From Streptomyces sp. LUP47B (lineage in GTDB: Bacteria; Actinomycetota; Actinomycetes; Streptomycetales; Streptomycetaceae), in contig NZ_MJAH01000003.1 of NCBI RefSeq assembly GCF_001746295.1, forward strand, positions 203,922 through 267,921: DNA of 64,000 nt. The letters run 5' to 3'. The notes below the pieces were generated by a model. It saw only the letters and a list, made by a program, of their open reading frames with translations, was not told where the DNA came from and made no database searches. The number at the start of each line of letters is the position of its first letter. The first letter of the stretch is position 1. This document shows, piece after piece, positions 18,546-63,612 of this stretch. The position numbers and the translations under genes are program-made.

Positions 18546-18808
18546 GCGGCCGGGCCGACCCCGCGAGACCATCGCGCGGCCCGCACGCGTCAAGCCCCGC
18601 GCCGTTACGGCGGCTTGCTCCGCACTTGCCGCGCCGGACAGCCGCCCGGCAGTCAACCGCCTTCGTCGGACGGCCCCCGGCGTGTCACTCGCCCCCACCG
18701 CCCCGTCCGACTTCTCCCGCCCCATTGTGCTGAGCCAACTGCCCCCCTACTGTTCGACTTTGCCTGAGTCTGTTTGATGCTGATCGCTCAGGCGAGAGGG
18801 AGGCCGCA

Positions 18809-38347: not shown

Positions 38348-38366
38348 GCTGGTTCGGCTCCCGGTC

Positions 38367-40191: not shown

Positions 40192-40219
40192 GGATGATCC
40201 TTAGGTATGTGGGAGCGGC

Positions 40220-41758
40220 TCAGCCGGCGATGGTGCGTTCCGAGCCCCAGTAGGGGCGGCGCATCGCGCGCTTGTCGAGCTTGCCCATGGCGTTGCGCAG
40301 CAGCTCGGGAACGACCTCGTACGACTTCGGGCACTTGTAGGCGGCGAGGCGCTCGCGGCAGAAGGCCTCCAGCTCGCCGGCGGGCGGCTCGTCCCCGGCG
40401 ACCACGACCAGCGCCCGCAGCGACTCGCCGAAGTCCGGGTCGGGCACGCCGATCACGGCGACCTCGACGACCGCGGGGTGCCGGCGCAGGACCGCCTCGC
40501 TCTCGGCCGGGTACAGGTTCACGCCGCCGGAGACCACGACGTCCGCAGCCCGGTCGGTGATGAAGATGTAGCCGTCGGCGTCGATGTAGCCGATGTCGCC
40601 GAGCGTGAAGACGCCGGGGGAGAGATAGGCGGCCTTGGTCTTGTCGGGGTCCGCGTGGTAGCGGACACCTTGGTCGTCGGGCGCCCGGAAGGCCAGCAAC
40701 CCGCGTTCCCCGGAGGGTAGTTGCCCGCCCTCGTCGTCCGTGACGAGCACCTCGAACGGGGGGTGTACCCGCCCGACCGAGCCCGGGTGCGCCAGCCACT
40801 CGGTGCTGCTGATGCGGGCCACGGTTCCCGCTTCGCTGGCGCCGTACGACTCGGTGAGCACCGGACCGAACCAGTCGATCATGGCGCGCTTGACGTCCGG
40901 CGGGCACGCGGAGCCGGTGTGGGAGACCTGCCGCAGGCTGGAGACGTCGTACCGGGCGCGGACGTCCTCCGGGAGGGCGAGCAGTCGTTGGAAGTGGGTG
41001 GGCACCATCACCGTCGAGGAGACCCGCCACTTCTGCACCCGGCTGAGGAACGACTCCGCGTCGTATCTGCCGAGGACGACCACCGGCTGACCGGCCGCCA
41101 GGTGCCGCAGCGAGGTCAGTGGCGCGTTGTGCTGCAGCGGACCGCACACCAGGTGGGGTCCCGGCGGGAATCCCGGTCGGGCGGACATCGCGGCGAGGTA
41201 GGCGGAGCTGTCGGCGACCGGGCCGCTCACCCAGCGCACCTCGGTGCCGCGTGCTCGTCCGGTGGTTCCCGAGGTGTACACGAGCGGAGGCCGGGCGGGC
41301 CGGTCCGTCGGGAGGGTGTGTCCGGCGGGCGCGGCGGCCAGCCACTTGTCCCAGTCGAAGGCGTGCCCGGCCAACGGGGTTCCGTGCGTCACGATCGGCA
41401 GACCCAGTTCCCGGGCCGCGTCGAGGGCGGCGCCCGCGCCGGCCGGTCCCGCGACGATGCCGGTCACACCCGCGTCGGTGATCTGGTCGACGAGCTCGCC
41501 CGAGGTGAGGTTCCGGGAGGTGGCCACGGTCCCCACTCCGGCTCGCAGGCCCGCCAGATGGGCCACCAGCGTCGGAATCGCGTTGTCGCCGAGGACGGCG
41601 ATCCGGTCGCCGGGGCCGGGCGCGAACTCCAGCAGCCGGGCCGCCGCCCGGGCCACCTGGTCGGCGAGGCCGGACCAGGACAGCACTCCGAAGTCGTCCG
41701 CCAGGGCGGGTTCCTCGGGTGTCTCCTGGGCGCGACGGTCGAGTGGCAGCAGCGACAT
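40220..41758 (-). CDS. acyl-CoA synthetase (AMP-forming ligase)
   Basis: A 512-residue ANL-family enzyme that activates a carboxylic acid to its CoA thioester. It has the P-loop VYTSGTTGRARG, the YGASEAGTV adenine-binding segment, the hinge region DIGYIDADGYIFITDRAADVV and the C-terminal catalytic lysine in AMGKLDKRAM. ATG at 41758 begins right after a GGAGGAGCC. It is first in the operon with phosphatase, thiolase, reductase and dehydrogenase genes, and divergent from the acyl-CoA dehydrogenase operon. The acid substrate is not predictable. Confidence 0.93.
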   Translation of the reverse strand: MSLLPLDRRAQETPEEPALADDFGVLSWSGLADQVARAAARLLEFAPGPGDRIAVLGDNAIPTLVAHLAGLRAGVGTVATSRNLTSGELVDQITDAGVTGIVAGPAGAGAALDAARELGLPIVTHGTPLAGHAFDWDKWLAAAPAGHTLPTDRPARPPLVYTSGTTGRARGTEVRWVSGPVADSSAYLAAMSARPGFPPGPHLVCGPLQHNAPLTSLRHLAAGQPVVVLGRYDAESFLSRVQKWRVSSTVMVPTHFQRLLALPEDVRARYDVSSLRQVSHTGSACPPDVKRAMIDWFGPVLTESYGASEAGTVARISSTEWLAHPGSVGRVHPPFEVLVTDDEGGQLPSGERGLLAFRAPDDQGVRYHADPDKTKAAYLSPGVFTLGDIGYIDADGYIFITDRAADVVVSGGVNLYPAESEAVLRRHPAVVEVAVIGVPDPDFGESLRALVVVAGDEPPAGELEAFCRERLAAYKCPKSYEVVPELLRNAMGKLDKRAMRRPYWGSERTIAG

Positions 41759-43195: not shown

Positions 43196-43234
43196 AAGGC
43201 TTCCAAGCGGCTTTCTCACAAAGGAGTGACATCG

Positions 43235-43999
43235 ATGGAACTGGGACTGACAGGCGCGAAGGCGCTGGTGACCGGTGCGAGCCGGGGTATCGGCCGGGCG
43301 ATCGCCGAGACCCTGGCCGCCGAGGGCTGTGCACTGGCCCTGTGCGCCCGGGGCGAGGAAGGGCTGGCCAAGGCGGCCGCCGAACTGCGGGGCGAAGGGG
43401 CCACCGTCTTCGCGGAACCGGTCGACGTCACCGACCCGGCCGCCCTCGCGGGCTTCGTGGAGCGGGCGGCCGGTGAACTCGGCGGACTGGACCTGCTGGT
43501 GTCCAACGTCTCGGCGGGCAACGTCAAAGGGCCCGAGTCGTGGGAGGCCAGCCTGCGCGGCGACCTGATCCCGTTCGCCGGCCTCGTCGAGGCGGCTCTT
43601 CCCCATCTGGAGGCATCCGACCGGGCCGCCGTCGTGGCCATCGGCACCACCAACGCCTCCGACACCGCCCGCCCGGCGGGCGCCAACTCCTACTCCGCGC
43701 TGAAGGCCGCCGTCGTCCAGCACGCCTCGGCCCTCGCCCATGCCCTCGCACCGAAGGGCATCCGCGTCAACACCGTCTCGCCCGGCCCGATCGACTTCCC
43801 CGGCGGCGCGTGGGAGACCATCCGCACCAGCCGCCCGGAGGTCTACGAGGAGGTGCTCGCCAAGCTGCCGATCGGCCGCTACGGCACCGCCGAGGACGTG
43901 GCCGCCGCGGTGGCGTTCCTGCTCGGCCGGACGGGCTCCTTCTGCGTCGGAGTCAACCTCGTGGTGGACGGCGGGCTGCTGACCCGCGTCCAGTACTGA
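43235..43999 (+). CDS. SDR-family oxidoreductase
   Basis: A 254-residue classical short-chain dehydrogenase with TGASRGIGRAIAE for NAD(P) binding, the catalytic YSALK pair, and the structural SPGPI loop after it. The usual NNAG is VSNVSAG here. It probably oxidises a hydroxyl on a pathway intermediate. ATG at 43235 is chosen because AAGGAG lies eight bases upstream; a GTG at 43226 overlaps that site. It is 39 bp after the acyl-CoA dehydrogenase gene. Confidence 0.9.
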   Translation: MELGLTGAKALVTGASRGIGRAIAETLAAEGCALALCARGEEGLAKAAAELRGEGATVFAEPVDVTDPAALAGFVERAAGELGGLDLLVSNVSAGNVKGPESWEASLRGDLIPFAGLVEAALPHLEASDRAAVVAIGTTNASDTARPAGANSYSALKAAVVQHASALAHALAPKGIRVNTVSPGPIDFPGGAWETIRTSRPEVYEEVLAKLPIGRYGTAEDVAAAVAFLLGRTGSFCVGVNLVVDGGLLTRVQY

Positions 44000-49738: not shown

Positions 49739-50143
49739 CGTTGAGTACTCCCGTGGTGTGGGCCTGCGCTGCGGCGGCCCGCGTCGCTTGTGCGTCCGCG
49801 GCGGCCGGCTCTGTCAGGCGGGATCCGTTGCCGCCCGGTCCGGGACGGCACGCATGGGTGATCGAAAGCTGCGTGGATCGCCGTCGTGGGGTACGGCGCG
49901 GGCCGTCGGGATGACCGGGCGGCGCTGTGGCCGAGACGGGCGGAACGCCACCTCTGGCCGTGGAGAAACTTTTGAGGCTCTACAGCCTCGGATGCGACGG
50001 AGTGTGACACGCCCCGACCGGCTTGGGGAGGGGTTGGTCCTCACTAATTCAAGGTGAACGTCGCGTCGGTGATTCAGTGAGTGTTGCTCCTGACCGCGAT
50101 CGATAACTACACTCACTCTAAAGTTTCTGTCGGAGGAGCGAAG
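49739..50143. promoter_or_regulatory. divergent control region of importer and Rieske operons
   Basis: About 405 bp. A 9-bp inverted repeat, AGTGAGTGT (50076-50084) facing ACACTCACT (50109-50117) with a 24-base spacer, lies just upstream of the Rieske start. A GAGGCT-N4-AGCCTC hairpin is at 49974-49989. The sequence AAAGTTTCT occurs in opposite orientations at 50120-50128 and 49972-49964, so both promoters may share a regulator. The remainder shows no coding signal. Confidence 0.5.
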
Positions 50144-51550
50144 ATGGACGATACGTCGGAGACGGGCCCGGCGCGGTGCCCCGGACCCAGCGTCCAGGAC
50201 TATCTCGACCGGGACAGCCGGCCGGTCCCCAAGGCGCTGAGGTTCGACCACAACGACCACATCGGCAGCGAGGACGTCGACGCCGCCCGCTTCACCTCCC
50301 GCGCCTGGGCCGAACGCGAGATGGAACAGGTCTGGCGGCGCGTGTGGCAGTTCGCCTGCCTGGAGAGCGAGATCCCCGAGGTCGGCGACCACGAGATCTA
50401 CGAGATCGGTGACGACTCACTGATCGTGGTGCGCACGGCCCCCGAGGAGATCCGCGCGTACGTCAACGTCTGCCTGCACCGCGGCCGCAAGCTGCGCACC
50501 AGCGGCGGCAACGTCGGCGAGTTCCGCTGCCCCTTCCACGGCTTCGCCTGGAACCTCGACGGCAGCATGCAGAGTCCGCCCTGCGCCTGGGACTTCCCGC
50601 ACGTCAGCCCCGAGAAGTTCTCGCTGCCCGAGGCCCAGGTGGCCACCTGGCGCGGCTTCGTCTTCATCAACATGGACCCGTACGCCGAGTCCTTCGAGAG
50701 CTACCGCGGCACCTTCGACGACTACTACATCTGGCCGCTGGAGAACCGCTACAAGTCGCTGCACATCGCCAAGGTGCTGCCCTGTAACTGGAAGGTCGCC
50801 CAGGACGCGTTCATCGAGTCCTTCCATGTGATCGCCACGCACCCGCAGATGCTGCCGTGGCTGGCCGACGCCAACTCCCAGTACGACGTGATGGCGGACC
50901 AGCCGAACTGGAACCGGATGATCAACATCCAGGGCGCCCCGAGCCCGCACGTGGCCGACTCCGTCACGGAGGAGGACGTCCTGGAGACCTTCTACGACTC
51001 CCGTGCCTTCTACGCGGCGGCCCAGGGCCGGGATCTGGTGATCCAGGAAGGCGACGAACTGCCGTCGATCCCGCCCGGCGGCACCGCCCGCCAGGTCCTC
51101 GCCCAGCGGATGCGCGACCAGCTGGCAGCCACCTCGCATCAGGACTTCTCGCAGACTGCGGACACCGAACTGCTGGACGCCATCAACTACCTGCTGTTCC
51201 CCAACTTCAATCCCTGGGGCGGCGCCAAGTCCAACATCATCTACCGGTTCCGGCCGCACGGGCTCGACCCCGACTCCTGCACCGCGGAGATCATCTTCAT
51301 GTCGGCCCCGAAGAAGCCCGGCGAGATGCCGCCCCCGGTCAAGATCCGCTGGGTGCCGGACGACATGCTCTTCGCGGACATCCCCGAACTCGGCGTGCTC
51401 GGGCCGGTCTTCGACCAGGACTGCGAGAACCTGCCCTACGTCCAGCAGGGCCTGAAGGCGATGCGCAAGCCGGGCATCACGCTGTCCAACTACCAGGAGA
51501 GCCGCATCCGCCACTTCAACCAGACGCTCGACCAGTGGATGAACAAGTGA
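50144..51550 (+). CDS. Rieske non-heme iron oxygenase, large subunit
   Basis: A 468-residue oxygenase. The Rieske [2Fe-2S] ligands are C110-L-H112 and C129-PF-H132 (CLHRGRKL, CPFHGFAW). The mononuclear iron site is in the segment around 215-233 (NWKVAQDAFIESFHVIATHP, His228 and His233). It should hydroxylate or dihydroxylate an aromatic or alicyclic substrate. The length and the ending fit the family, and no small beta subunit is nearby. ATG at 50144 has CGGAGGAG upstream. It is first in an operon with a ferredoxin, a 72-residue protein and an MDR reductase. Confidence 0.94.
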   Translation: MDDTSETGPARCPGPSVQDYLDRDSRPVPKALRFDHNDHIGSEDVDAARFTSRAWAEREMEQVWRRVWQFACLESEIPEVGDHEIYEIGDDSLIVVRTAPEEIRAYVNVCLHRGRKLRTSGGNVGEFRCPFHGFAWNLDGSMQSPPCAWDFPHVSPEKFSLPEAQVATWRGFVFINMDPYAESFESYRGTFDDYYIWPLENRYKSLHIAKVLPCNWKVAQDAFIESFHVIATHPQMLPWLADANSQYDVMADQPNWNRMINIQGAPSPHVADSVTEEDVLETFYDSRAFYAAAQGRDLVIQEGDELPSIPPGGTARQVLAQRMRDQLAATSHQDFSQTADTELLDAINYLLFPNFNPWGGAKSNIIYRFRPHGLDPDSCTAEIIFMSAPKKPGEMPPPVKIRWVPDDMLFADIPELGVLGPVFDQDCENLPYVQQGLKAMRKPGITLSNYQESRIRHFNQTLDQWMNK

Positions 51551-51861
51551 CCCACACGGTGGCGGTCAGGCCCTCGGACGTCGAGATCGAAGTCCGCGAC
51601 GGTGAGGACCTGTTCAGTGCCGCCCAGCGGCTCGGCTACCGCTGGCCCACCGTCTGCGGCGGCAAGGGCACCTGCCGCACCTGCTTCGTCCAGGTCGAGG
51701 AGGGCGTGGAGAACTGTTCTCCCGTGGGCCCGCTGGAGCGCGAGGGCATCGAGGCCCTGCGCAGGCCGGTGGACGGCCTGACCCGGCTCGCCTGCCGGCT
51801 CCGGGTCGAGGGCCCGGTGACCGTGACCAAACGCGGCGTACGCCGCCGACCGCAGGAGTGA
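51547..51861 (+). CDS. [2Fe-2S] ferredoxin
   Basis: A 104-residue plant-type ferredoxin with CGGKGTCRTCFV and a later Cys in RLACRLR. The second Cys of the usual CxxxxC pair may be offset, so the cluster should be checked. It would carry electrons to the Rieske protein. The GTG start overlaps the upstream stop by four bases (GTGA). Confidence 0.9.
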   Translation: MTHTVAVRPSDVEIEVRDGEDLFSAAQRLGYRWPTVCGGKGTCRTCFVQVEEGVENCSPVGPLEREGIEALRRPVDGLTRLACRLRVEGPVTVTKRGVRRRPQE

Positions 51862-51864
51862 GCC

Positions 51865-52083
51865 GTGAGCCGCAAGCAAGTGACCCATCCGCTGACCGGG
51901 CAGGTGTACCGGCTCACCGAGGACGGGCTGGTCGAGGTGACCGACCCCAGAACCGGAGCCAGTGGCATCTTCGACTTCCAGGCTCGCTGGCAGTCGGGCG
52001 AACTGCGCCACGCCGACCTCCAGATGGCCGGCTGGGTGGGCCGTCTCGCCCAGCGGCGCGGCGCCACGCCGCCGGAGGCGTGA
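51865..52083 (+). CDS. 72-residue uncharacterised protein
   Basis: A small protein of 72 residues with no recognised domain. It begins MSRKQVTHPLTGQVYRLTED, followed by a GLVEVTDPRTGASGIFDF segment and a helical end, LQMAGWVGRLAQRRG. It is cytosolic, with no Cys or His metal site. Its position between the ferredoxin and MDR genes (3 and 4 bases away), with a good ribosome binding site, suggests an auxiliary subunit or assembly factor of the Rieske system. The function is unknown. Confidence 0.7.
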   Translation: MSRKQVTHPLTGQVYRLTEDGLVEVTDPRTGASGIFDFQARWQSGELRHADLQMAGWVGRLAQRRGATPPEA

Positions 52084-52087
52084 GCCG

Positions 52088-53131
52088 GTGCCGCCCCGCA
52101 CCACCCGCGTGGTCTGCCTGGTGCGCCGGCCCGACGGGGAACCGGCCCTCGGGGACTTCGCCGTCGAACAGCGCCCGCTTCCGCCCCTGAGCGAGGGGCG
52201 GTTGCTCGTCCGCAACCTCTACATGAGCGTCGACCCGTCGATGCGCGGGCGCCTGGAGAGCACCGAGAAGCACTACACGCACAACTTCACGCCCGGCTCA
52301 CCGCTGGACGGCCGCGCCCTCGGCGTCGTGGTGGAGAGCCGCTGTCCGTCAGTGCCGCCGGGCACCTTCGTACGCCATCAGCTCGGCTGGCGGGAGTGGG
52401 CCGTGCTCGACCTCGCGGAAACCGATGCCGCGGGCCGTATCGACCCGCAACTCGCTCCGCTGCCCACGTGGTTGGGGCTGCTGGGACAGACCGGTTTCAC
52501 CGCCTACGTCGGGCTCACGCGGATCGCCGAGGTGCGCCCCGGCGACACCGTCTTCGTGTCGGCGGCGGCCGGGGCAGTGGGCAGCGCGGCCGGCCAGCTC
52601 GCCAGGCTGTTGGGCGCTGAGCGGGTCATCGGGACCGCCGGAGGGCCGGACAAGTGCGCCCTGCTGGTCAAGGAGTTCGGCTACGACGCCGCCGCGGACT
52701 ATCGCGCCGAGCCGGTACGCGACGCGCTCGCGCGGCTGGCGCCCGACGGCATCGACGTCTACTTCGACAACGTCGGCGGGGAGCAACTCGCCGCCGCCCT
52801 CCACGCGTTGCGGACCGGGGGCCGGGTCGCCCTGTGCGGCATGATGTCGCAGTTCGGCGGCGCGTCGCGCTCCGCCGACATCAACCAGTTGATCCAGGCG
52901 GTCCTCAAGCGGCTCACCCTGTGCGGCTTCATCGTCCGCGACCACGACGACCTGCGGCCGGAGTTCGAGAGCCGCGTCGCCGACTGGCTCCGCTCGGGCC
53001 GCATCACCGCCCGTGAGACCGTGACGGACGGCCTCGACAGCGCGGCCGGCGCCCTGCTGACGCTGCTGGACGGTGGCAACGTCGGCAAGATGCTGGTCCG
53101 GTTGGCCGACGATCCGTACCACCGCGCATAG
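52088..53131 (+). CDS. zinc-independent MDR-family NADP reductase
   Basis: A 347-residue medium-chain reductase of the leukotriene-B4 dehydrogenase/curcumin-reductase class: NLYMSVDPSMRGRL, GQTGFTAYVGL, and the nucleotide motif SAAAGAVGSAAGQLARLLGA, followed by YFDNVGGEQL and GGRVALCGMMSQF. It reduces the alpha,beta double bond of an enone. Start GTG at 52088. It is the last gene of the Rieske operon. Confidence 0.92.
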   Translation: MPPRTTRVVCLVRRPDGEPALGDFAVEQRPLPPLSEGRLLVRNLYMSVDPSMRGRLESTEKHYTHNFTPGSPLDGRALGVVVESRCPSVPPGTFVRHQLGWREWAVLDLAETDAAGRIDPQLAPLPTWLGLLGQTGFTAYVGLTRIAEVRPGDTVFVSAAAGAVGSAAGQLARLLGAERVIGTAGGPDKCALLVKEFGYDAAADYRAEPVRDALARLAPDGIDVYFDNVGGEQLAAALHALRTGGRVALCGMMSQFGGASRSADINQLIQAVLKRLTLCGFIVRDHDDLRPEFESRVADWLRSGRITARETVTDGLDSAAGALLTLLDGGNVGKMLVRLADDPYHRA

Positions 53132-53175: not shown

Positions 53176-53490
53176 CTATCGCATGGAGCGACTCGCCCCG
53201 ATGGTCAAGACCTCCAGGAACACACCCACCCGCGTCAGCCCGGTCGTGGCCGCGCGGAAGTCCTTGATGTGCGCCGTGGTGAAGTGCTCGTCCAGGGCCT
53301 GCTGGGACGCCCACCGTTCGTACACCCGGATCCGGCGCTCGTCGGACGGGTCCGCCGTCATGGCGTAGTCCAGACAGCCGGGCTCCTGTTCACGAGTGTG
53401 CTTTCCGGCCTCGACGAGGTGGCCCAGCATCGTGTCGCGGTCCGCGGGCTCGTAGTCCATCCAGCCGGCGACGATGACTTCCTCAGTCAC
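53176..53490 (-). CDS. ABM-domain (antibiotic biosynthesis monooxygenase-like) protein
   Basis: A 104-residue dimeric alpha-beta barrel protein: MDYEPADRDTMLGHLVEAGK, then EPGCLDYAMTADPSD and YERWASQQALDEHF. Members are cofactor-free monooxygenases or quinol-handling proteins. The start is GTG at 53490. It is the last gene of the operon that starts with the second Rieske gene, 73 bp after the phosphotransferase-like gene. Confidence 0.88.
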   Translation of the reverse strand: MTEEVIVAGWMDYEPADRDTMLGHLVEAGKHTREQEPGCLDYAMTADPSDERRIRVYERWASQQALDEHFTTAHIKDFRAATTGLTRVGVFLEVLTIGASRSMR

Positions 53491-53563: not shown

Positions 53564-55300
53564 TCAGATGGCGAGCGCTGCCGGGACGCCGTCCACGGTG
53601 ACCGTGCCCCTGGTGCCGTCGACCGTGATCACCATGCCGTCCCGCAGCCGCCGGGTACCGCCCTCGACGGAGATGACGGCCGGGATGCCCAGCTCCCGGC
53701 AGACCACGACGGCGTGGCTGTTGAGCGCGCCCACGTCCACCACGGCGGCCCCGGCGACCAGGAACAGCGGTGTCCAGGCCGCGTCGGTGATCGGCGCCAC
53801 CAGCACCTCGCCCGGCTCGAGCGCCTCGCACGACGCGGGGTCGGTGACCACCCGCACCCGGCCGGTGTAGGTGCCCTGGCTGCCTCCCACGCCCTTCAGC
53901 ACATCGCCTTCACCGGCGGTCGCGATCCCGTCCTCGCTGCGCCGCGGCCAGGTGTCGATCGCCGTCTGGGCGTCCTGGGCGACGAAGAACGGCGGTTCCA
54001 GCTCCCGCAGTCCGGCGTACTCCCGAAGCCGCTGCGCGATGACGGGGCCGAAGCGGCCCGGATCGGCGACGTAGTCGTCGAGCTCGCTCTCCAGCAGCAT
54101 CATCACGTCCTCGGGCTCGGCGAAGAGCCCCGCCCCGACCCCGCGGCGGCCCAGTTCCCGTACCGCCATCCGGATCTCGTTGATGACGGTCACGCAGTTC
54201 GCCTTGGTCCGCTCGCGGGCCGGGATCCACACCTGGGAGGCGTGCACTCCGGCGTCGAACACCGGCTGGACGTCCTCGGGGAGGGCCTCCCGGATCTCCT
54301 TCGCGAGCCGTTCGCGGCGCTCGGTCAGCCGCCGGTGACGCTCGGCCGGGGAGTCGTCGTCCGGGCTGTGCCGGATGCGGTCGACGAGAGCCAGGGCCTG
54401 GACCGGTGCCGCCTCCCAGGACAGCGCGTGGATGTCCCACTCGTTGGGGCCCCGGTCCCCGGACGCGGCCAGGAACTCCTCGAAGGCGTCCCGGAACGCC
54501 TTCACGTCGCCGCTCGCCCCGTCGAGCGCCCGCTCCACCGCCGCCGGACCCCGGTCGAACAGCGCGGTCAGCTCGGCCGAGGCCACCACCTGGCGGGACA
54601 GTGCCCACAGGCCGGTGGAGGGGGAGGCCGAGTCGACGTCACCGAGACCGCCGATGAGGTCCAGCATGGCGCCGGGCCGGTCCAGACCCGCGCACAGCGG
54701 ACCGAGGATGGCCGGTCCGACGGACGCCGGCAGCGACGACTCGACGTGCCGCTGGAAGGTGGTCTCCACCTCGCCGAGGAGCGAGCGGGCGTGGGTCACG
54801 AGTTCCGCCGCGGACAACTGCGTCAGGTCGGGCCGCTCGCGCCGGATCCGGCGCAGCCGCTCCTGGTCGGCGTCGGCCTCGGGGAAGCCGGGCTGTCCCA
54901 GCATCCGCTGCACCGTCGCCCCGGCTTTGGCCGTCAGCTCCGCGTCCTCGTCCTCCGGATGCGCCACGTACACCGGGGTGTCGGAGCGCTGCCCGACGAA
55001 GGCGGTGTCGATCTGGTCCGCCGTCTGTCCCATACGGATGCCGAACAGCCGCATGTGCGACAGGTTGAGGTAGAAGTACCCGCCGAACATTCCGGCGAAC
55101 GGCGGCCAGGGGCCGGTCACTTCCTCCTCGTGGTAGATGCCGAAGCCGACGAAGCCGCGGCGCCAGCCCTGCAGCCCACGTCCCCACACCAGGGTCCAGC
55201 CCAGTGGGCTGGCGGGCTCCGGCAGGGTCTCGCCCGCGTTGGCGCGGGTGTAGTGGGGCAGCCGCTCACTGCGGCGCCCGTCCGTGATCCAGCTCTTCAT
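53564..55300 (-). CDS. PEP-utilizing-enzyme-like phosphotransferase lacking the ATP-grasp domain
   Basis: A 578-residue protein. The C-terminal swivelling domain (about 465-575) keeps the phosphorylatable histidine, His529, in the run ALNSHAVVVCRELGIPAV. The preceding 460 residues are mainly helical and resemble the central part of PEP-synthase-like proteins. No ATP-grasp nucleotide-binding domain is present. This layout recalls one subunit of phenylphosphate synthase and truncated rifampicin-phosphotransferase-like proteins. A separate ATP-binding partner would be expected but none is in the window. It would act on a phenol or alcohol in the pathway. The function is inferred. ATG at 55300. 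Confidence 0.8.
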   Translation of the reverse strand: MKSWITDGRRSERLPHYTRANAGETLPEPASPLGWTLVWGRGLQGWRRGFVGFGIYHEEEVTGPWPPFAGMFGGYFYLNLSHMRLFGIRMGQTADQIDTAFVGQRSDTPVYVAHPEDEDAELTAKAGATVQRMLGQPGFPEADADQERLRRIRRERPDLTQLSAAELVTHARSLLGEVETTFQRHVESSLPASVGPAILGPLCAGLDRPGAMLDLIGGLGDVDSASPSTGLWALSRQVVASAELTALFDRGPAAVERALDGASGDVKAFRDAFEEFLAASGDRGPNEWDIHALSWEAAPVQALALVDRIRHSPDDDSPAERHRRLTERRERLAKEIREALPEDVQPVFDAGVHASQVWIPARERTKANCVTVINEIRMAVRELGRRGVGAGLFAEPEDVMMLLESELDDYVADPGRFGPVIAQRLREYAGLRELEPPFFVAQDAQTAIDTWPRRSEDGIATAGEGDVLKGVGGSQGTYTGRVRVVTDPASCEALEPGEVLVAPITDAAWTPLFLVAGAAVVDVGALNSHAVVVCRELGIPAVISVEGGTRRLRDGMVITVDGTRGTVTVDGVPAALAI

Positions 55301-55337: not shown

Positions 55338-56129
55338 CTACCATTGCGCCGTTCCGCCGTCCACGCTGATCAGCGTGCCCGTGATGCCCGCGCCGGCGTC
55401 GCTCGCGAGGAGCGAGGCGACCGCGGCCACCTGCTCCACGGTGGTGATCTGCTTGGTGGCGGCGTGCTCGGCGAAGCGGCCCAGCCATTCCTCGTACGAG
55501 ATCCCCTCGGCCTCGGCCGCGGCAGGACCGGCGGCCCGCATCAGATCGGTGTCGACGGCGCCGGGGCAGATGGCGTTGCAGGTGATGCCCTGCGTGCCGT
55601 ACTCGAAGGCGGTCGCCTTGGTCAGGCCGTGGATGGCGTGCTTGTTGGTGATGTAGTGGCTGATCGCGGGCTTGTTGGCCTGCTTGCCCTCGACGGAGGA
55701 GATGTTGATGACGCGTCCCCAGCCGCCCGCCAGCATGGTCGGCAGTGCGCGGCGGGTGCCGTAGAAGTAGGCGTTGAGGTTCAGGTTGAGGGCGTCGTGC
55801 CAGGCCTCGTCGCTGAGCTGGTGGACCGGAGCGAAGCCCGAGGTCCCGCCGACGTTGTTGACCCAGATGTCGAGCCGGCCGAAGCGCTCGGCGGTGAAGT
55901 CGGCCAGGGCCTCGATGTCCGCCTGGCTGTTGGCGTCGCAGGGGTGGAAGACCGCCTTGTCCCCGGCGTCCAGCTCCTCCAGCGCCTGCTTGCCCTTGAG
56001 TTCGCTGCGGCCGCTGATGACGACCGTCGCGCCGTGGGCCAGGAAGGCCTCGGCGATGGCGCGGCCGATACTGCGTGTGCTGCCCGTGATCACCGCGACA
56101 CGTCCGTCGAGGCTGCCCGTAGCCACCAT
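55338..56129 (-). CDS. SDR-family oxidoreductase
   Basis: A 263-residue classical SDR with TGSTRSIGRAIAEAFL, VNNVGGTSGF, NISSVEG and the catalytic YITNK pair. It also contains the typical CPGAVDTDLM segment and an ending, SVDGGTAQW. It could oxidise a diol or hydroxy intermediate produced by the Rieske enzyme encoded upstream. ATG at 56129 has CAGGAG upstream. It is the second gene of the operon. Confidence 0.92.
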   Translation of the reverse strand: MVATGSLDGRVAVITGSTRSIGRAIAEAFLAHGATVVISGRSELKGKQALEELDAGDKAVFHPCDANSQADIEALADFTAERFGRLDIWVNNVGGTSGFAPVHQLSDEAWHDALNLNLNAYFYGTRRALPTMLAGGWGRVINISSVEGKQANKPAISHYITNKHAIHGLTKATAFEYGTQGITCNAICPGAVDTDLMRAAGPAAAEAEGISYEEWLGRFAEHAATKQITTVEQVAAVASLLASDAGAGITGTLISVDGGTAQW

Positions 56130-56158
56130 GTTGTTCTCCTGCGAGGGTTGTCGGTGCG

Positions 56159-57427
56159 TCACCTGGCGGCTCTGCTGTCCAGGTGTTCGTGAACGGTGCG
56201 GTGGAAGTGCTGGAGTCCGGGCTCGTTGCGTCCGAAGACGAAGTCGGTCCCGTTGAGGGCGGCAAGCCCCTGCTGGACTCCGTAGGTGGTCGCGTAGTCC
56301 TCGTCGCGGACCACCTCGTAGAACCACTCGCCGAACGTGTCGGCGACGCGGCGTTCCTCCTCGGTGACCGCCGGTTCGCGCAGCAGGATGATCTGCTGGG
56401 TGACCGACTCGGTGGCCGTCCGGGGAAGCACCAGGGAGACGGCGATCTTGTTGCGCCAGCCTCCGGCTATGGCGAGACCGGGATAGAGCCAGTAGATGGC
56501 TCCGACGCACTCTCCGGGGTCGCGCTGCTCCGGAGGCAGCTCGACCGCCTGCGCGATGGGGCGCAGGGCCGGTGCGATGCGCTGGTGGGGACCCCAGGTG
56601 TCATGGGCCATCATGTTGGAGAGGTTCGTCTCGAACACCGTCTTCGGGTGCAGCGAGGCGAAGTGGTACGTCTCCAGGTAGCCGTCGAGCGTGACCTTCC
56701 AGTTGGGGCTGGTCAGCTCCTTGGTCGAGTAGTGGTGGCAGTCCGCGAGACGCAGCCCCTCGAGGAGCGGCTGCAGATCCCCGAGCCAGGCGTCGAGGTC
56801 CGGCTCGGCCGCGGTGTCCAGTGAGACGAAGACGATGCCGGCGCGCTCGCCGGCCGGGAGCCGTACCAGACCGCGCCCGGTGCGGGGCACGTCGCCGAAG
56901 GTCTTCTCGGCGTACACGCCCCGCAGTTCACCGGCCAGGTCGTAGGACCAGGAGTGGTAGGGGCAGGTCAGCCGCTTGGAGACCCCGCAACCCGGCTCGA
57001 TCAGTTTGGCCCCGCGGTGCCGGCAGGCGTTGATCATCGCGTGCACGGCGCCCTGCCGGTCCCGGGTGATCAGTACCGGCACACCGAGCACGTCGAGTGC
57101 CTTGTAGGTGTTCGGTCCGGGGAGTTCGGCGGACATGGCGAGCGGCAGTGGGACGGTCCGGTGGACGGCGTCCATCTCCCGTTGCCAGCGGTCGGCGTCG
57201 AGGTAGTTGGCGACGGGTTCCGTCCACTGGCCGTCCGCCTCGTGCGTCGTGTTGTTGCGGTAGTGCTCCAGCACGCGCTCGACGAGCTCGGCGGCTTCCT
57301 GCCGCATCGCCACGGCGGCGGCGTCGGTGGACCGGTCGCGGCTGATCCACGAGGAGTACTCGGGTGCCGGGGGCGGCCGGTGATCGGCACCTGTCTCCCG
57401 GAGTTCCGGCGAACTGGTCTGGACCAC
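56159..57427 (-). CDS. second Rieske non-heme iron oxygenase
   Basis: A 422-residue oxygenase with Rieske ligands C135-R-H137 and C155-PY-H158 (CRHRGAKL, CPYHSWSY). The mononuclear iron site is D248, H255 and H260 in DGYLETYHFASLHP. It belongs to a different subgroup from the 50144 protein, with low similarity between them outside motifs, and probably acts on a different intermediate. It has no dedicated ferredoxin gene in its operon. Start GTG at 57427, first gene of a four-gene operon. Confidence 0.93.
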   Translation of the reverse strand: MVQTSSPELRETGADHRPPPAPEYSSWISRDRSTDAAAVAMRQEAAELVERVLEHYRNNTTHEADGQWTEPVANYLDADRWQREMDAVHRTVPLPLAMSAELPGPNTYKALDVLGVPVLITRDRQGAVHAMINACRHRGAKLIEPGCGVSKRLTCPYHSWSYDLAGELRGVYAEKTFGDVPRTGRGLVRLPAGERAGIVFVSLDTAAEPDLDAWLGDLQPLLEGLRLADCHHYSTKELTSPNWKVTLDGYLETYHFASLHPKTVFETNLSNMMAHDTWGPHQRIAPALRPIAQAVELPPEQRDPGECVGAIYWLYPGLAIAGGWRNKIAVSLVLPRTATESVTQQIILLREPAVTEEERRVADTFGEWFYEVVRDEDYATTYGVQQGLAALNGTDFVFGRNEPGLQHFHRTVHEHLDSRAAR

Positions 57428-57961
57428 GATGTCCTCACAATCCTCTCGGCCGCGAACCGGCGAGGGGCTTCAGATGCGGCGGCCGGGCTGTGAGCGACAC
57501 GACAACAGGGGTAAGTGTTGTCTGTCAATAGAAAGTCCGGAACTCGCCGCACGGTATACCGCAGGTCACATCACCTTCAGTCGGGGCAAATGGCTACAGA
57601 ACATGTTCGATCTTTCTGGGGAGCGGCTCCAGTCGCTCGCGCGTGACGGGCCGTTGGCTCCCACTTCCCGGGCTCCATCGAAAATCCCGGCCGCCCAGGG
57701 TGGTGAACTGCTGATCGTCCGGCCCCGCCGTGTGCACGGTCGGCCGTGCCGCCGGCCGCCCGCCGGGTCGGTTTCCGGGCCGAACCGGAAGGTGATGCGC
57801 TCGAGTCGGGCGACGGGCCCGGAGGTGATCCGGAGCCTGGTCGGACCGAAGCGTAGTAATTAGAGAACCTCTCCAGTAACGTGCCCGCTGCTGGTTACTG
57901 TAGACCGGTACAACAAAGTCCGATTGCTGGAAACACCTCGCTCGGGGCGAAGGGGCGGACG
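57428..57961. promoter_or_regulatory. divergent control region of second Rieske and AcoABC-like operons
   Basis: About 534 bp. Near the left end, GACAACA (57501-57507) faces TGTTGTC (57516-57522) with an 8-base spacer. It lies directly next to a minus-strand -35 TTGACA (57528-57523). Near the right end, CCAGTAAC (57873-57880) faces GTTACTG (57894-57900). Between them (57540-57850) I see no gene I would support. Confidence 0.5.
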
Positions 57962-58972
57962 ATGGCTCAAAGGGCATCGAAGAAGTCGGCCGGTCCGGCC
58001 GCGAACCACACATCCGCGCAGGTCGTCAGGGATCTGCATGAGCGCATGGTGCGCATCCGGCTGTTCGAGACCGAGGCCGGAAAGCTCATGGAGGCCGGCA
58101 AACTGCCGGGCTTCCTGCATCTCTACGTCGGTCAGGAAGCCGTGGCCGCGGGCGTGATGGCGGCCCTGCGCGACGACGACCAGATCACCTCCACGCACCG
58201 CGGGCACGGGCATGCCGTGGCCAAGGGTGTCAGTTTCAAGCACATGTACGCAGAGCTCTACGGCCGCGTCACCGGCGCCTGCCTCGGCCGCGGTGGAAGC
58301 ATGCACATCAACGACGTCTCCCTCGGCATGCTCGGCGCCAACGGCATCGTCGGTGCCGGCGTCCCGATCGCCGTGGGCGCCGCCTTCGCCGCCCAGTACC
58401 GGGGCGAGGACAACATCGCCGTCACCTTCTTCGGTGACGGCGCCACCAACATCGGCAGCTTCCACGAGGGCGCCAACATGGCCGCGATCCTGCGGCTGCC
58501 GGTCCTGTTCATCTGCGAGAACAACGGCTACGCCGAGTTCACCCCGCAGTCGAAGCACATGCTGATCACCGACGTCGCCGAGCGGGCCGCGTCCTACGGC
58601 ATGCCCAGCGTGATCGTCGACGGCATGGACGCGCTCGCCGTCCACCAGGCCACCGTCGAAGCCGTCGAACGCGCCCGGGCCGGCGAGGGCCCCATGTTCA
58701 TCGAGGCCAAGACCTACCGCTACTACGACCACCAAGGCGTCAAGGGACTGCGGCACCCCTACCGCTCGGACGCGGAGGTCGAGGAGTGGAAGGCCCGCGA
58801 CGCCATCGACCTCATCGAGGCCCGTGCCCTCTCCGACGGCACCGCCACCCGCGCCGAGCTGGACGAGACCTGGCGGCGCACCCGCGACGAGATCGCCGAG
58901 GCCATCGCGTACGCCGAGGCCAGCCCGCTGCCCGACACCGCCGACCTGCTGCTCAACGTCTACTCGGGATGA
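57962..58972 (+). CDS. AcoA-like dehydrogenase E1 alpha subunit
   Basis: A 336-residue thiamine-diphosphate-dependent E1 alpha. The cofactor motif runs from GDG (158-160) to ENN (186-188). It also has HRGHGHAVAKG, GRGGSMH and RYYDHQGVKG, typical of acetoin or branched/pyruvate-type dehydrogenases. Substrates could be acetoin or a short 2-oxo acid. ATG at 57962. It is first of three overlapping genes. Confidence 0.93.
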   Translation: MAQRASKKSAGPAANHTSAQVVRDLHERMVRIRLFETEAGKLMEAGKLPGFLHLYVGQEAVAAGVMAALRDDDQITSTHRGHGHAVAKGVSFKHMYAELYGRVTGACLGRGGSMHINDVSLGMLGANGIVGAGVPIAVGAAFAAQYRGEDNIAVTFFGDGATNIGSFHEGANMAAILRLPVLFICENNGYAEFTPQSKHMLITDVAERAASYGMPSVIVDGMDALAVHQATVEAVERARAGEGPMFIEAKTYRYYDHQGVKGLRHPYRSDAEVEEWKARDAIDLIEARALSDGTATRAELDETWRRTRDEIAEAIAYAEASPLPDTADLLLNVYSG

Positions 58973-60003
58973 CCGCCATGACCACGATCACCGAAGCACC
59001 GGCCCTCGCTCCGGGCGGCACGGCCCGCAAGCTCAGCTACGTCAAGGCCTTCAACGAAGGACTCGCCCAGGCGATGCGCGAGGACGAGAACGTCTTCGTC
59101 GCCGGCGAGGACGTGGCCGGCTACGGCGGCGTCTTCCGCATGTTCGACAACCTGCTCGACGAGTTCGGGCCCCGCCGCATGATCGACACCCCGATCTCCG
59201 AGGCCGCACTCGTCGGCCTGGGCGTGGGCGCCGCCGCCCGGGGACTTCGCCCTGTCGTCGACCTGATGTTCATGGACTTCATCGGCGTCTGCCTGGACCA
59301 GATCGTCAACCAGGCCGCCAAGATGAAGTACATGTTCGGTGGCTCCGTCTCGGTGCCGCTCACCATCACCACCGCCTCCGGCGCGGGCCTCGGCGCCGCC
59401 GCCCAGCACAGCCAGAGCCTGGAGGCCTGGCTCGCGCATGTCCCCGGGCTCAAGGTCGTCATGCCGAGCGACGCGTACACGGCCAAGGGCCTGACCGTGT
59501 CGGCGATCCGGGACGACAACCCGGTCGTCGTGATGCTCAACAAGGTGCTCCTCGGCAGTACGAGCGACGTGCCCGAGCAGATCTACGGCATTCCGCTGGG
59601 GCAGGCGCACACCGCACGGCACGGCTCCGACGTCACCGTCATCGCCCTGGGCCGCATGGTGGGCGAGGCCCTCGCGGCGGCGGATGAACTGGCCGCCGAT
59701 GGCATCGAGGTCGAGGTCATCGACCCGCGTACCGTGCAGCCGCTGGACACCGAGACCATGTTCGCCTCCGTGCGCCGCACCAACCGGGTTCTCGTGGTGC
59801 ACGAGGCCGTGACCTTCGGAGGGCTCGGCGGGGAGATCGCCGCCCAGATCCAGGACGCGGCCTTCGACTACCTGGACGCTCCGGTGCTGCGCATCGGCGC
59901 GCCCTTCTCCCCGGTGCCGTTCTCCCCGGTGCTGGAGAAGGCCTATGTGCCCGACCAGGCCCGCATCGTGCAGGGCTGCCGTCGTCTCCTCGAAAGGTCG
60001 TGA
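58969..60003 (+). CDS. AcoB-like dehydrogenase E1 beta subunit
   Basis: A 344-residue E1 beta, with VFVAGEDVAGYGGVFRMF, DTPISEAALVGLGVGAA and LGRMVGEALAAADELAADG, ending in the usual FSPVLEKAYVPD. It completes the thiamine active site with E1 alpha. ATG at 58969 overlaps the E1 alpha stop (ATGA); a second ATG at 58978 is nearly as good. Confidence 0.93.
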   Translation: MTAMTTITEAPALAPGGTARKLSYVKAFNEGLAQAMREDENVFVAGEDVAGYGGVFRMFDNLLDEFGPRRMIDTPISEAALVGLGVGAAARGLRPVVDLMFMDFIGVCLDQIVNQAAKMKYMFGGSVSVPLTITTASGAGLGAAAQHSQSLEAWLAHVPGLKVVMPSDAYTAKGLTVSAIRDDNPVVVMLNKVLLGSTSDVPEQIYGIPLGQAHTARHGSDVTVIALGRMVGEALAAADELAADGIEVEVIDPRTVQPLDTETMFASVRRTNRVLVVHEAVTFGGLGGEIAAQIQDAAFDYLDAPVLRIGAPFSPVPFSPVLEKAYVPDQARIVQGCRRLLERS

Positions 60004-61415
60004 CCGAAGTGGCGGTCGAGGTTCTGCTGCCGAAGATCGGCCTGACCATGCAGGAAGGCACGATCGACGAGTGGCTCGTGCCGACCGGTGGCGCGGTCTC
60101 GGAAGGTGACGCACTGCTGCGGCTGGCCACCGACAAGGTCGACGTGGACGTCGAGGCGGAGGCCGGAGGCCTGTTCCACCCCGTGGTCCAGGCCGGGGCG
60201 ACCCTTCCGGCAGGGGCGCTGATCGGCTGGCTGCTGGCCGAAGGGGAGGCGCTGCCGGTATCCGGCGGGCCTGTGCCCACCGAACCGGTGGACGCCGGCA
60301 CGGCGGACGCGGTGTCGGCCGCCGCAGGAGTTCCCCCCGTGGCGGCATCCCTCAACGGGAGCGGTGGGCTCAACGGCTCGGGGGGCCGGCTCCTGGCTTC
60401 CCCGAACGCCCGGCGGGTGGCCGCCGAGACCGGAGTCGACCTGGCCGCCCTGCGCGGCACCGGGCCCGGTGGCCGGATCGTCTCCGAGGACGTGGAGGAG
60501 TACCTGCTCGCCTTGCCGGCGCAGCCGCCCGTCGTCCTCTCGGCGGACCCGGTGACCCCCACCTCCCCCCTGGTCCGCCGGCTGGCGAAGGAACGGGGCA
60601 TCGACCTCGCGGACGTACGGCCCACCGGTGCGGGCGGGCGGATCAGACGGGCCGACCTCGACGCCGTCACCCCGGCGGCCGCACCGACTCCGGCGCCGGC
60701 CGGCCGGGCCACCGCGTCGCCACAGCCAGGGGACGTCATCCCGCTGACCGGCATGCGCGGCATCATCGCCGGCCGGATGCACGCCAGCCTCCAGGAGATG
60801 GCCCAGCTGACACACGGCTACGAAGTGCGGATGGACGCCGTCGTGGCCCTGCGGGAGCAACTCAAGCAGGAGTGGGCCGACAGCGACCTGCCGGTGCCCA
60901 GTCTCAACGACTTCCTGATGAAGGCCGCCGCGCTGGCCCTGCGGGACCATCCGCTGCTCAACGCCGGAGTGCTCGAGGACGGCATCCACCTGTTCGAGGA
61001 CATCCACCTCGGGTTCGCGGTCGCGGTGCCCAACGGCCTGCTCGTTCCCGTCATCCAGGACGCGGCGGACCTGCCGCTGCCCGAAATGGCGCGCTGTTCC
61101 CGGAAGTTGGCCGAGAACGCCCGTGCCGGGCGGATCTCCCCGGCGCAGTTGGAGGGCGCCACCTTCACCGTCACCTCACTGGGTGGCTACGGCGTGGACT
61201 TCTTCACTCCCGTGGTCAATCCCGGCAACGTGGCCATCCTCGGCGTGGGCAGGCTCAGGGACGGCGTCGAGTGGGTCGACGACCAGCCGCGGCGGACGCG
61301 GGTGCTCACCCTGAGCCTCACCTTCGACCACCGTGCCGTCGACGGGGCTCCGGCGGCCGAGTACCTGCGCACGGTCGGTGAACTGCTGCGCAGGCCGTTG
61401 CGGTTGCTGGTCTGA
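60000..61415 (+). CDS. E2 dihydrolipoamide acyltransferase with two PSBDs
   Basis: A 471-residue E2. The lipoyl domain has Lys46 in ATDKVDVD. Two subunit-binding domains follow: the first at 131-169 (LASPNARRVAAETGVDL) and the second at 187-224 (TSPLVRRLAKERGIDL). The catalytic core (about 245-471) has DHRAVDG with His444. Having two binding domains is unusual; one is the rule for most E2 proteins. It may have a denser E1/E3 shell. No E3 (lipoamide dehydrogenase) gene is in the window, so it must borrow one. GTG overlaps the E1 beta stop (GTGA). Confidence 0.93.
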   Translation: MTEVAVEVLLPKIGLTMQEGTIDEWLVPTGGAVSEGDALLRLATDKVDVDVEAEAGGLFHPVVQAGATLPAGALIGWLLAEGEALPVSGGPVPTEPVDAGTADAVSAAAGVPPVAASLNGSGGLNGSGGRLLASPNARRVAAETGVDLAALRGTGPGGRIVSEDVEEYLLALPAQPPVVLSADPVTPTSPLVRRLAKERGIDLADVRPTGAGGRIRRADLDAVTPAAAPTPAPAGRATASPQPGDVIPLTGMRGIIAGRMHASLQEMAQLTHGYEVRMDAVVALREQLKQEWADSDLPVPSLNDFLMKAAALALRDHPLLNAGVLEDGIHLFEDIHLGFAVAVPNGLLVPVIQDAADLPLPEMARCSRKLAENARAGRISPAQLEGATFTVTSLGGYGVDFFTPVVNPGNVAILGVGRLRDGVEWVDDQPRRTRVLTLSLTFDHRAVDGAPAAEYLRTVGELLRRPLRLLV

Positions 61416-61457: not shown

Positions 61458-62069
61458 TCAGCCCTTCGTCACCGGATCGGCGATCCGCTCCGCGAGGCGG
61501 CCCACCTCGCGGAGAAAGGAGCGGTGCCCCAGGGAGCGGTACGCCTCGTCCCCCCGCGCCTGTGAGATCGCCGCGGTCTCCAGCAGCGCCAGCACACCCA
61601 GGCCGATCACCGCCGCCTCCGCGTCCGTGACCGGCCCGCCGGCCTTGCGGACCAGCCGCACCAAGTCCTCCAGCAGCTGCGTGCGGACCTCGTGCCGCAG
61701 CGCCTCCGCCTCCTGGCTCATACCGGCCGAGGACACGAAGAAGACGGTGGCGGCGGAGCGGTGTTCGCCCAGCCAGGCCACCAGCGCCGTGATGGCGGGA
61801 CCGATGTCCGTGGCCGGGGTGTGGGTCTCCGCGAGCGTCTCCACCTGCTCACGCAGCGCCGCGGCGAACACCCGCATGCCCTCCACGAGCACCTGGTCCT
61901 TGGAGGAGAAGTGGTAGTACACCGCGGCTGACGTCATCTCCGCCCGCGCGGCGATGTCGGCCACCGTCACCTCGTCCGGAGGCTGGGTCGCGAACAGCTC
62001 CGTGGCCGCCTCGATCACCCACTGCCTGCGCGAGGGGCGGTGAGCGGCGCGGGTTCCGGATGTAGTCAT
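61458..62069 (-). CDS. TetR-family regulator
   Basis: A 203-residue regulator. Residues about 12-60 are the TetR HTH (VTVADIAARAEMTSAAVYYHFSSK); the rest is a helical ligand domain. It is divergent from a second, related TetR gene (62190) with a 120-bp gap and resembles it in the N-terminal HRPSRRQ, so they may be paralogues. It lies 42 bp after the E2 gene, in the opposite direction. Confidence 0.92.
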   Translation of the reverse strand: MTTSGTRAAHRPSRRQWVIEAATELFATQPPDEVTVADIAARAEMTSAAVYYHFSSKDQVLVEGMRVFAAALREQVETLAETHTPATDIGPAITALVAWLGEHRSAATVFFVSSAGMSQEAEALRHEVRTQLLEDLVRLVRKAGGPVTDAEAAVIGLGVLALLETAAISQARGDEAYRSLGHRSFLREVGRLAERIADPVTKG

Positions 62070-62907: not shown

Positions 62908-63612
62908 TCACCAGGGCAGTGGCTCGCGGCCGGCGAACAGCCCGCCCGTCGTCTCGTCGCCGTCAGGGAGGGTCGCCAGCCAGACGGGCGTGTCCGCGCC
63001 CTCCTCCGGGCCGCGCGGCGCGGACGGACCGCCCATGCCGCTGCGGGTCCACCCGGGGTCGGCCGCGTTGACCAGGACGCCAGTGCCGGACAGCTCGCCG
63101 GCGAGCATCCGGGTGAAGGCGTTGAGCGCGGTCTTGGAGACGCGGTAGGCCGGGTGCCGGCCGGAGTCCATCAGCGCCAGGGAGCCGTACGAGCTGGTGA
63201 GGTTGACCACGCGTCCGTAGCCGCCCCGCACCATGCCCGGGACGACGGCCTCGGCCACCCGCCAGGCGCCCACGAGATTGATGTCCAGGGTGGCACGCAG
63301 GATCTCCTCGTCGACGTACGGAGGCCGCAGCTCGCCGTCCAGGGACACTCCCGCGTTGTTCACCAGCACGTCCACCCCGCCGCCGGTCAGCTCCGCGGCC
63401 TCCCGCACCGCTTCGGTGACGCTCTTCGGGGAACTCACGTCCAGGGCCAGCGGCAGCGCCCCCTGGCCGATGGTGCGGCACGCCTCCTCGGCGGCCTCCA
63501 GCTGCCGTGCCGCGACCAGTACCCGCAGCCCCCGCTCCGCGAGTTGTCGGCAGATCTCCACGCCGATCCCGCGAGCGCCGCCGGTGACCAGGGCGGTTCT
63601 GTTCTCGCTCAT
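62908..63612 (-). CDS. SDR-family oxidoreductase
   Basis: A 234-residue SDR with TGGARGIGVEI, NNAGVSLDG and the catalytic pair YRVSK, followed by NAADPGWTRSGMGG. It is the carbonyl reductase/SDR type with short C-terminus. ATG at 63612. It lies 21 bp after the thiolase-like gene at the window edge and is probably cotranscribed. Confidence 0.92.
   Translation of the reverse strand: MSENRTALVTGGARGIGVEICRQLAERGLRVLVAARQLEAAEEACRTIGQGALPLALDVSSPKSVTEAVREAAELTGGGVDVLVNNAGVSLDGELRPPYVDEEILRATLDINLVGAWRVAEAVVPGMVRGGYGRVVNLTSSYGSLALMDSGRHPAYRVSKTALNAFTRMLAGELSGTGVLVNAADPGWTRSGMGGPSAPRGPEEGADTPVWLATLPDGDETTGGLFAGREPLPW

Follow-up and report, generated by a model that had tools for sequence, protein, structure and literature searches.

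A swivelling-histidine acceptor protein without an ATP-grasp domain and a candidate PEP-type half-dikinase donor in a Rieske oxygenase gene cluster of Streptomyces

Enzymes related to rifampin phosphotransferase (RPH) are known in which the functions of a dikinase are divided between two proteins. In HpeHI, CreHI and PpsAB, an RPH-like acceptor-binding domain and a phosphohistidine swivel domain lie on one chain and the donor on another, as described in the available part of PMC12167813. According to the same source, CreHI starts the aerobic catabolism of 4-methylphenol and HpeHI that of hydroxyphenylethanones; HpeH and the bare ATP-grasp protein HpeI are both required together with ATP, and HpeH alone transphosphorylates from 4-phosphoacetophenone to acetovanillone (PMC12167813). 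The gene analysed here, designated SWIV (53564..55300, minus strand), lies in a stretch of 64,000 nucleotides (the window) from Streptomyces sp. LUP47B (contig NZ_MJAH01000003.1, positions 203,922 to 267,921), and its product has this same acceptor and swivel arrangement. The first-pass annotation of the window had pointed to phenylphosphate synthase, with these functions in two subunits, as an anaerobic system; split dikinases are not confined to anaerobic metabolism, as CreHI and HpeHI make them known from aerobic pathways. Whereas the donor of HpeHI, CreHI and PpsAB is a bare ATP-grasp subunit lacking a swivel, the candidate donor of SWIV is half of a pyruvate phosphate dikinase (half-PPDK) that has a swivel of its own.

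SWIV is a 578-residue protein in which the PF00391 swivel (residues 495-565, E 4.4e-20) is the sole Pfam domain, the ATP-grasp family PF01326 being unmatched in the Pfam scan; its catalytic histidine is residue 529, within VVDVGALNSHAVVV. The first-pass annotation had drawn attention to both features, the histidine in the swivel motif and the lack of a nucleotide-binding domain, and was right on both. The best match among solved structures was rifampin phosphotransferase 5fbs, and because SWIV residues 270-568 align with 569-864 of that structure (E 6e-27), SWIV is an acceptor half plus swivel and not a truncated phosphoenolpyruvate (PEP) synthase. RPH can be seen as its fused relative, which has its own ATP-grasp domain and phosphorylates the drug. 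SWIV R362, E363, K366 and H529 align onto R666, E667, K670 and H825 of RPH; in an alignment of 24 family members, from which L175 was omitted, as were two copies of L225 and also L209 because of duplication or overlap, R362 and H529 were invariant, and E363 and K366 were kept in at least 90%. The RPH mutants R666A and E667A lost drug inactivation, as reported in the available part of PMC4844700, so that, judged by this alignment, SWIV retains the Arg and Glu that RPH requires for its second phosphotransfer. A role of SWIV as a phosphotransferase is well supported.

Orthologues of SWIV (at least 83% identity) were found in 22 further genomes among 392 searched, and in a set of 38 named genomes (35 of Streptomyces and three of Lentzea) that overlaps with the former 23, the genome of LUP47B included; the gene is therefore not an artefact. 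One of these genomes, G278, has both SWIV and the half-PPDK described below twice, at opposite chromosome ends (C1:662411-664144 and 10876684-10878417), perhaps in terminal inverted repeats. An ATP-grasp partner resembling PpsB or HpeI, to be expected somewhere in the genome if SWIV worked like the described systems, was sought by PF01326 profile searches. In the LUP47B assembly (56 contigs, rated 100% complete) PF01326 was matched in three proteins only, each with a swivel in the same frame, and no free-standing PF01326 protein was detected at E 0.001 or at E up to 10. Outside this genome, a frame was counted as free-standing if shorter than 600 residues and matching nearly the whole of PF01326, longer frames being taken as fusions and weak partial frames in G396 (300 residues) and G400 (250 residues) left uncounted; by this definition, 18 of the 23 orthologue genomes lacked a standalone ATP-grasp gene. 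The first-pass annotation had named the absence of any ATP-grasp partner from genomes carrying the gene as a reason to give up its proposal, and for a partner of the PpsB/HpeI kind this absence was found in the 18 genomes, LUP47B among them; nor did the searches reveal such a partner in the neighbourhood of SWIV.

Six proteins of the LUP47B genome match PF00391, and one of them, designated PPDKL, is encoded about 11 kb from SWIV on the same strand (G000:C23:270321-272933, corresponding to window-relative positions 66400-69012). It lies 2.4 kb past the right edge of the window and for that reason could not be seen in the first pass. PPDKL matches nearly the whole PPDK profile TIGR01828, with 693 bits against a cut-off of 843, and keeps the PEP-binding domain PF02896 (239 bits). 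Its sites were read by alignment with maize PPDK and with two ordinary PPDKs from LUP47B, residue numbers following PPDK. In all of the 35 distinct PPDKL sequences, the six ATP-site positions (K22, R92, D321, E323, Q335 and R337) are changed, the E323 position being Asp in 34 of them, whereas the catalytic His and the PEP-site residues R561, R617, E745, N768, D769 and C831 are retained; in these tables three duplicates of 38 rows were merged, and L190 and L192, which are partial or stopped reads, were omitted. Because of the changed ATP-site residues, PF01326 is not matched in PPDKL even at E up to 1. Judged by these residues, PPDKL would accept phosphate from PEP and not from ATP. The PPDKL of G688 (L212/L192, G688:C23:258989-260134) has one in-frame stop, pointing to a damaged gene or a sequencing error.

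PPDKL was found (at least 75% identity) in 22 of the 23 genomes with SWIV orthologues, the exception being the fragmented G396, and in G400 both genes were present on separate contigs. Among the named genomes it was detected in 35 of 37, once in two pieces, the misses being a metagenome bin and one draft (L116, one of the 38 named loci, was left out of this count). Of 199 genomes sampled from the genus, 10 had PPDKL, and each of these was a SWIV carrier as well. When 394 genomes of the class were searched, nine outside the genus had PPDKL at 41-59% identity, and nine weaker matches (30-34%) showed the intact motifs of ordinary PPDKs. In five of the nine distant PPDKL genomes, a SWIV homologue (36-44%) lies no more than about 16 kb from PPDKL, and these five loci all contain homologues of a histidine phosphatase, of the Rieske oxygenases and of X212, a small gene described below; the E1/E2 genes of a 2-oxoacid dehydrogenase are present in four, no E1/E2 being seen in G608 on the stretches read. 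In G505, G608 and G678, the SWIV, Rieske, histidine phosphatase, X212 and PPDKL genes share one strand. As common conservation is expected for any genes of a shared cluster, the case for a functional tie between PPDKL and SWIV rests on the complementary loss of halves, on the neighbourhood in distant genomes and on a gene fusion involving X212.

X212 is a 212-residue gene directly upstream of PPDKL (G000:C23:272894-273532, window-relative 68973-69611, minus strand, outside the window), without a match in Pfam or NCBIfam. Relatives were found at 36 of 37 loci with PEP-type half-PPDKs such as PPDKL. At loci with half-PPDKs of the opposite, ATP-type kind, they were found in 12 of 12 of a first set and in 13 of 16 after four loci read later were added, and at ordinary PPDK loci in none of 13 (within about 1.5 kb) and none of three (within 15 kb). 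The X212 model was trained on part of the loci later counted, one training row (L237) being a longer fused protein; the ordinary PPDK loci and Rhodococcus opacus B4 stood outside the training set. In R. opacus B4, a fusion protein of 809 residues joins a swivel (44-140) to X212 (618-808), and in R. pyridinivorans X212 adjoins SWIV and not the PPDK. In Rhodococcus LW-XY12 (L237:12731-14992), an acyl-CoA synthetase domain and X212 share one open frame.

Among 72,556 plasmid records, five, all from Rhodococcus, have SWIV homologues (36-41%, E up to 1e-30), and each of these five plasmids also carries a short PPDK. In all nine short PPDKs tabulated, the six ATP residues are present and the PEP barrel is missing. 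The loci read came from 18 of 26 plasmid records (H13-H23, H26-H29, H31, H36 and H37), seven of them chosen later as controls; H24, H25, H30, H32-H35 and H38 were left unread. An ATP-type half is present in 15 of the 18 (H13-H23, H28, H29, H31 and H37, with a decayed PEP barrel in the last), and for 12 of these 15 a gene of the acceptor-swivel kind lies on the same plasmid, within 15 kb in eight. None of the three plasmids with an intact full-length PPDK (H26, H27 and H36) has an acceptor-swivel gene within 15 kb. In Diaphorobacter the acceptor gene is followed by X212 and then by the short PPDK, next to Rieske genes. The plasmid of Rhodococcus sp. ZPP carries homologues of Rieske oxygenase 1, the SDR (short-chain dehydrogenase/reductase), E1 alpha, E1 beta, the thiolase, the ChsH2-like protein, the acyl-CoA synthetase and the histidine phosphatase of the LUP47B cluster, and there the pathway is accompanied by an ATP-type half-PPDK. 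Streptomyces G166 has three SWIV paralogues (39-40%) and, on a different contig, a short PPDK adjoining X212, histidine phosphatase and E1 genes. In pRB98 of R. oxybenzonivorans (L236:5246-6816), a lone 125-residue swivel domain is followed by a separate gene of 398 residues, so that the acceptor is seemingly split further, and genes annotated as phosphotransferases (of the APH type where scanned) recur near SWIV or half-PPDK genes in L223, L224 (e.g. 18463-19488), L234, L236, L238 and L244.

The closest described relative of these ATP-type proteins is VadK (Rv1127c), likewise a half-PPDK that retains its swivel His and has a partner gene in its operon; it keeps the ATP half without a PEP barrel, whereas PPDKL keeps the PEP barrel with the ATP site changed. 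As far as the available part of PMC13400623 shows, VadK phosphorylates itself on His422 in the presence of ATP and Mg, is needed for virulence and alters flux, and its operon partner Rv1126c raised the solubility of VadK and parted from it with 2 M NaCl. Judged by its gene position, Rv1126c is possibly a homologue of X212. The main text of that paper, in its available part, names no small-molecule acceptor of VadK and does not use the word acceptor (PMC13400623), and open-licence literature listings yielded nothing that connects half-PPDKs with PEP-utilizing swivel proteins.

These data make it rather probable, in our assessment, that SWIV takes phosphate from a half-PPDK, of the PEP type in LUP47B, and passes it on to a compound with a hydroxyl group. 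We infer the steps, the contacts and the direction of this transfer as follows. PEP would phosphorylate the His of PPDKL, from which the phosphoryl group would pass to His529 of SWIV or directly to the substrate; SWIV would bind a hydroxyl-bearing intermediate or substrate of the pathway, onto which phospho-His529 would transfer the group in the manner of HpeH and of the RIF-binding and swivel domains in RPH, with no use for an ATP-grasp subunit like PpsB or HpeI. X212 may hold donor and acceptor together, and the histidine phosphatase may remove the phosphate later. In Rhodococcus and the other bacteria the donor would be the ATP half of PPDK, of the VadK type. The putative donor link between PPDKL and SWIV is drawn from genomic context. 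As proposed here, PPDKL would resemble Enzyme I (EI) of the phosphotransferase system (PTS), in which a PEP-dependent His phosphorylation is handed on, as also happens in the PEP-driven dihydroxyacetone kinase. Unlike EI, PPDKL is derived from PPDK at full length and has a remnant ATP-grasp domain, and no HPr or EII gene is among the assigned genes of the cluster. By analogy, a precedent for PEP-driven transfer to a substrate of the RPH type is the EI of Bacillus subtilis, which alone phosphorylates rifampicin in vitro, the reaction being undetected in vivo, according to the available part of PMC13099321.

A number of observations count against this proposal. As to SWIV itself, the motif V-D-V-G-A-L-N-S-H departs from the T/SXXGGXXXH of HpeH, with GA for GG and no T/S, and an AlphaFold2 (AF2) model built with 21 close orthologues reached a pLDDT of 42 only and was not used. 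As to the donor, co-occurrence demonstrates membership of a cluster and not contact, and in Streptomyces PPDKL is 11 kb from SWIV, not adjacent to it. Both proteins own a swivel, so that each may act elsewhere. In four of the nine distant PPDKL genomes, no SWIV was found on the stretches read, which comprise a 6-kb contig in G773, 20 kb in G590, 26 kb in G460 and, in G694, the whole 38.7-kb contig, although Rieske and histidine phosphatase homologues are there. Among the plasmids, SWIV and the short PPDK of R. opacus VOC-14 are about 745 kb apart on a single plasmid, and two Skermanella loci and a Methylibium locus contain neither an acceptor swivel nor X212 in the stretch read; half-PPDKs therefore have further uses too. 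The Methylibium locus still carries histidine phosphatase and Rieske genes, which are thus not tied to SWIV alone. In a tree, the PEP-type and ATP-type half-PPDKs do not form one clade, the PEP branch being long. PrpC and PrpD came down together with VadK in co-precipitation, and a regulatory role was proposed for VadK, as stated in the available part of PMC13400623. Finally, five of the 23 orthologue genomes (G132, G201, G272, G278 and G373) do have standalone ATP-grasp genes, and in four of these five a swivel gene is adjacent.

The same Skermanella and Methylibium loci have features of their own. In the former (L243:14890-16596 and L248:14890-16596) the short ATP-type half-PPDK lies in a glyoxylate cluster and overlaps the gene for a pyruvate kinase, so that PPDK activity is perhaps split over two proteins. 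The latter, on a plasmid of Methylibium petroleiphilum PM1 (L246:14902-17433), encodes an 843-residue PPDK with an intact ATP site and without the PEP-site residues, its C-terminal third being an unassigned domain, decayed or replaced, adjoining Rieske, histidine phosphatase and tyrosine-phosphatase genes.

By comparison with VadK, PPDKL might have a different, regulatory or metabolic role, that of a VadK-like protein kinase or a sensor of PEP/pyruvate, acting for example on E1/E2 and not feeding SWIV, which would then shuttle phosphate between small molecules. The co-precipitation of VadK with PrpC and PrpD and the change in flux speak for such a role, as does the transphosphorylation by HpeH in the absence of a partner (PMC12167813, available part). 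We nevertheless regard it as unlikely, because the neighbourhood of SWIV, X212 and half-PPDK recurs in Beta- and Actinobacteria and X212 is fused to a swivel protein, which ties the donor to the acceptor and not to one enzyme of a pathway.

It also seems quite unlikely that SWIV works in the manner of HpeH, with a divergent ATP-grasp subunit encoded elsewhere or with the ATP-grasp domain of a housekeeping PPDK or PEP synthase. All of HpeHI, CreHI and PpsAB employ a separate ATP-grasp subunit (PMC12167813, available part), and PF01326 matches of the PPDK kind, from which such a domain could be borrowed, are present in the LUP47B genome and in all 23 genomes; but the search at E up to 10 yielded no standalone match in LUP47B, and where standalone ATP-grasp loci do exist in the genus, five of seven (six loci in the five genomes named above and one in G166) adjoin a swivel gene whose product belongs to another clade than SWIV. 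In the tree, which has long branches, the SWIV proteins make up a clade of their own (100/99). Outside it fall five HpeH-like rows (100/100), these being proteins encoded beside ATP-grasp genes and not authentic HpeH, CreH or PpsA, and five additional acceptors from plasmids (100/100). As a donor for SWIV, the standalone ATP-grasp gene in G166 was discarded, since it has its own swivel neighbour, and such a swap of donors is further weakened by the short PPDK that this genome has with X212 and a histidine phosphatase. At two Streptomyces loci (L177:7278-14449 and L181:7339-14474), HpeHI-like pairs are followed by genes that by eye are biotin carboxylase-like and HAD-like, an arrangement resembling the Hpe pathway.

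That SWIV has lost phosphotransfer altogether, its acceptor pocket and swivel serving another reaction or binding, would fit the deviating loop before His529 and the absent ATP-grasp domain, but is made highly improbable by the invariant His529 and R362, the nearly invariant E363 and K366 and the recurrence of phosphatase genes in the clusters.

The preferred reading, transfer from a half-PPDK through SWIV, is set in a catabolic cluster of which the SWIV operon is one part. As the first-pass annotation had it, this operon joins SWIV to genes for an ABM-domain protein (53176..53490), an SDR oxidoreductase (55338..56130, start approximate) and a Rieske oxygenase of the alpha subunit type (Rieske oxygenase 2, 56159..57427), all on the minus strand. 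On the plus strand lie Rieske oxygenase 1 (50081..51550), a 2Fe-2S ferredoxin (51550..51861) and a medium-chain reductase (MDR) of the curcumin-reductase type (52070..53131, start approximate), and, on the other side, the 2-oxoacid dehydrogenase genes for E1 alpha (57953..58972), E1 beta (58969..60003) and E2 (60000..61415). The core formed by Rieske2-SDR-SWIV-ABM, MDR-ferredoxin-Rieske1 and E1a-E1b-E2 is conserved with few gaps across Streptomyces and Lentzea. A TetR-type regulator (61458..62069, minus strand), assigned by eye with no family search, is kept in the cluster. It is followed on the minus strand by a second SDR (62908..63612) and, upstream of the latter, a thiolase/lipid-transfer protein (63634 to beyond the end of the window); between this gene and PPDKL, outside the window and on the same strand, are genes for a ChsH2-like OB-fold protein and then an acyl-CoA dehydrogenase.

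A second group of genes at the left contributes to the cluster. It consists, on the minus strand, of a reductase of the FNR type with a C-terminal ferredoxin (37379..38404), which may supply the Rieske enzymes with electrons, an acetyl-CoA acyltransferase (38367..39557), the histidine phosphatase of branch 1 (39586..40191; PF00300), whose identification in the first pass was confirmed, and an acyl-CoA synthetase of the FadD type (40220..41758; 86-87% identical to its Lentzea orthologue), and, on the plus strand, an SDR oxidoreductase (43226..43999; 98% in Lentzea, while distant clusters and Rhodococcus ZPP have homologues). The three Lentzea clusters include the acyl-CoA synthetase and the histidine phosphatase of window positions 39586-41758 (85-88%), and at the end of two of the three loci the orthologue of the acyltransferase (a thiolase) begins. 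Since Lentzea has an orthologue of the histidine phosphatase and five distant SWIV clusters contain homologues (30-58%), this gene is a member of the cluster. The occurrence of such phosphatase genes in homologous clusters, together with the kept R362 and E363, lends support to the earlier suggestion that phosphorylation may be a step within an aerobic pathway. Two assignments were discarded, that of the ABM protein as LsrG (20.5 bits, the cut-off being 135) and that of the histidine phosphatase as an orthologue of HpeD, HpeD being NagD-like in the available part of PMC12167813.

On annotated plasmids, the half-PPDKs are named "pyruvate phosphate dikinase" and the acceptors "PEP-utilizing enzyme", generic names from which the function of neither is visible. 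Tentatively, these proteins may belong to a cytosolic phosphorelay for small molecules built from the halves of dikinases, in which a half-PPDK charged by PEP or ATP, X212 as coupler and a transfer from swivel to swivel would lead to the substrate, the window containing a PEP-driven, PTS-like version at work in aerobic catabolism. If so, VadK-type kinases would serve the same kind of acceptor, and the conserved acceptor family and the shared neighbour gene make the question of the VadK acceptor testable. The PEP-driven member, if it is one, would mean that the donor of a small-molecule kinase is exchangeable by swapping dikinase halves.

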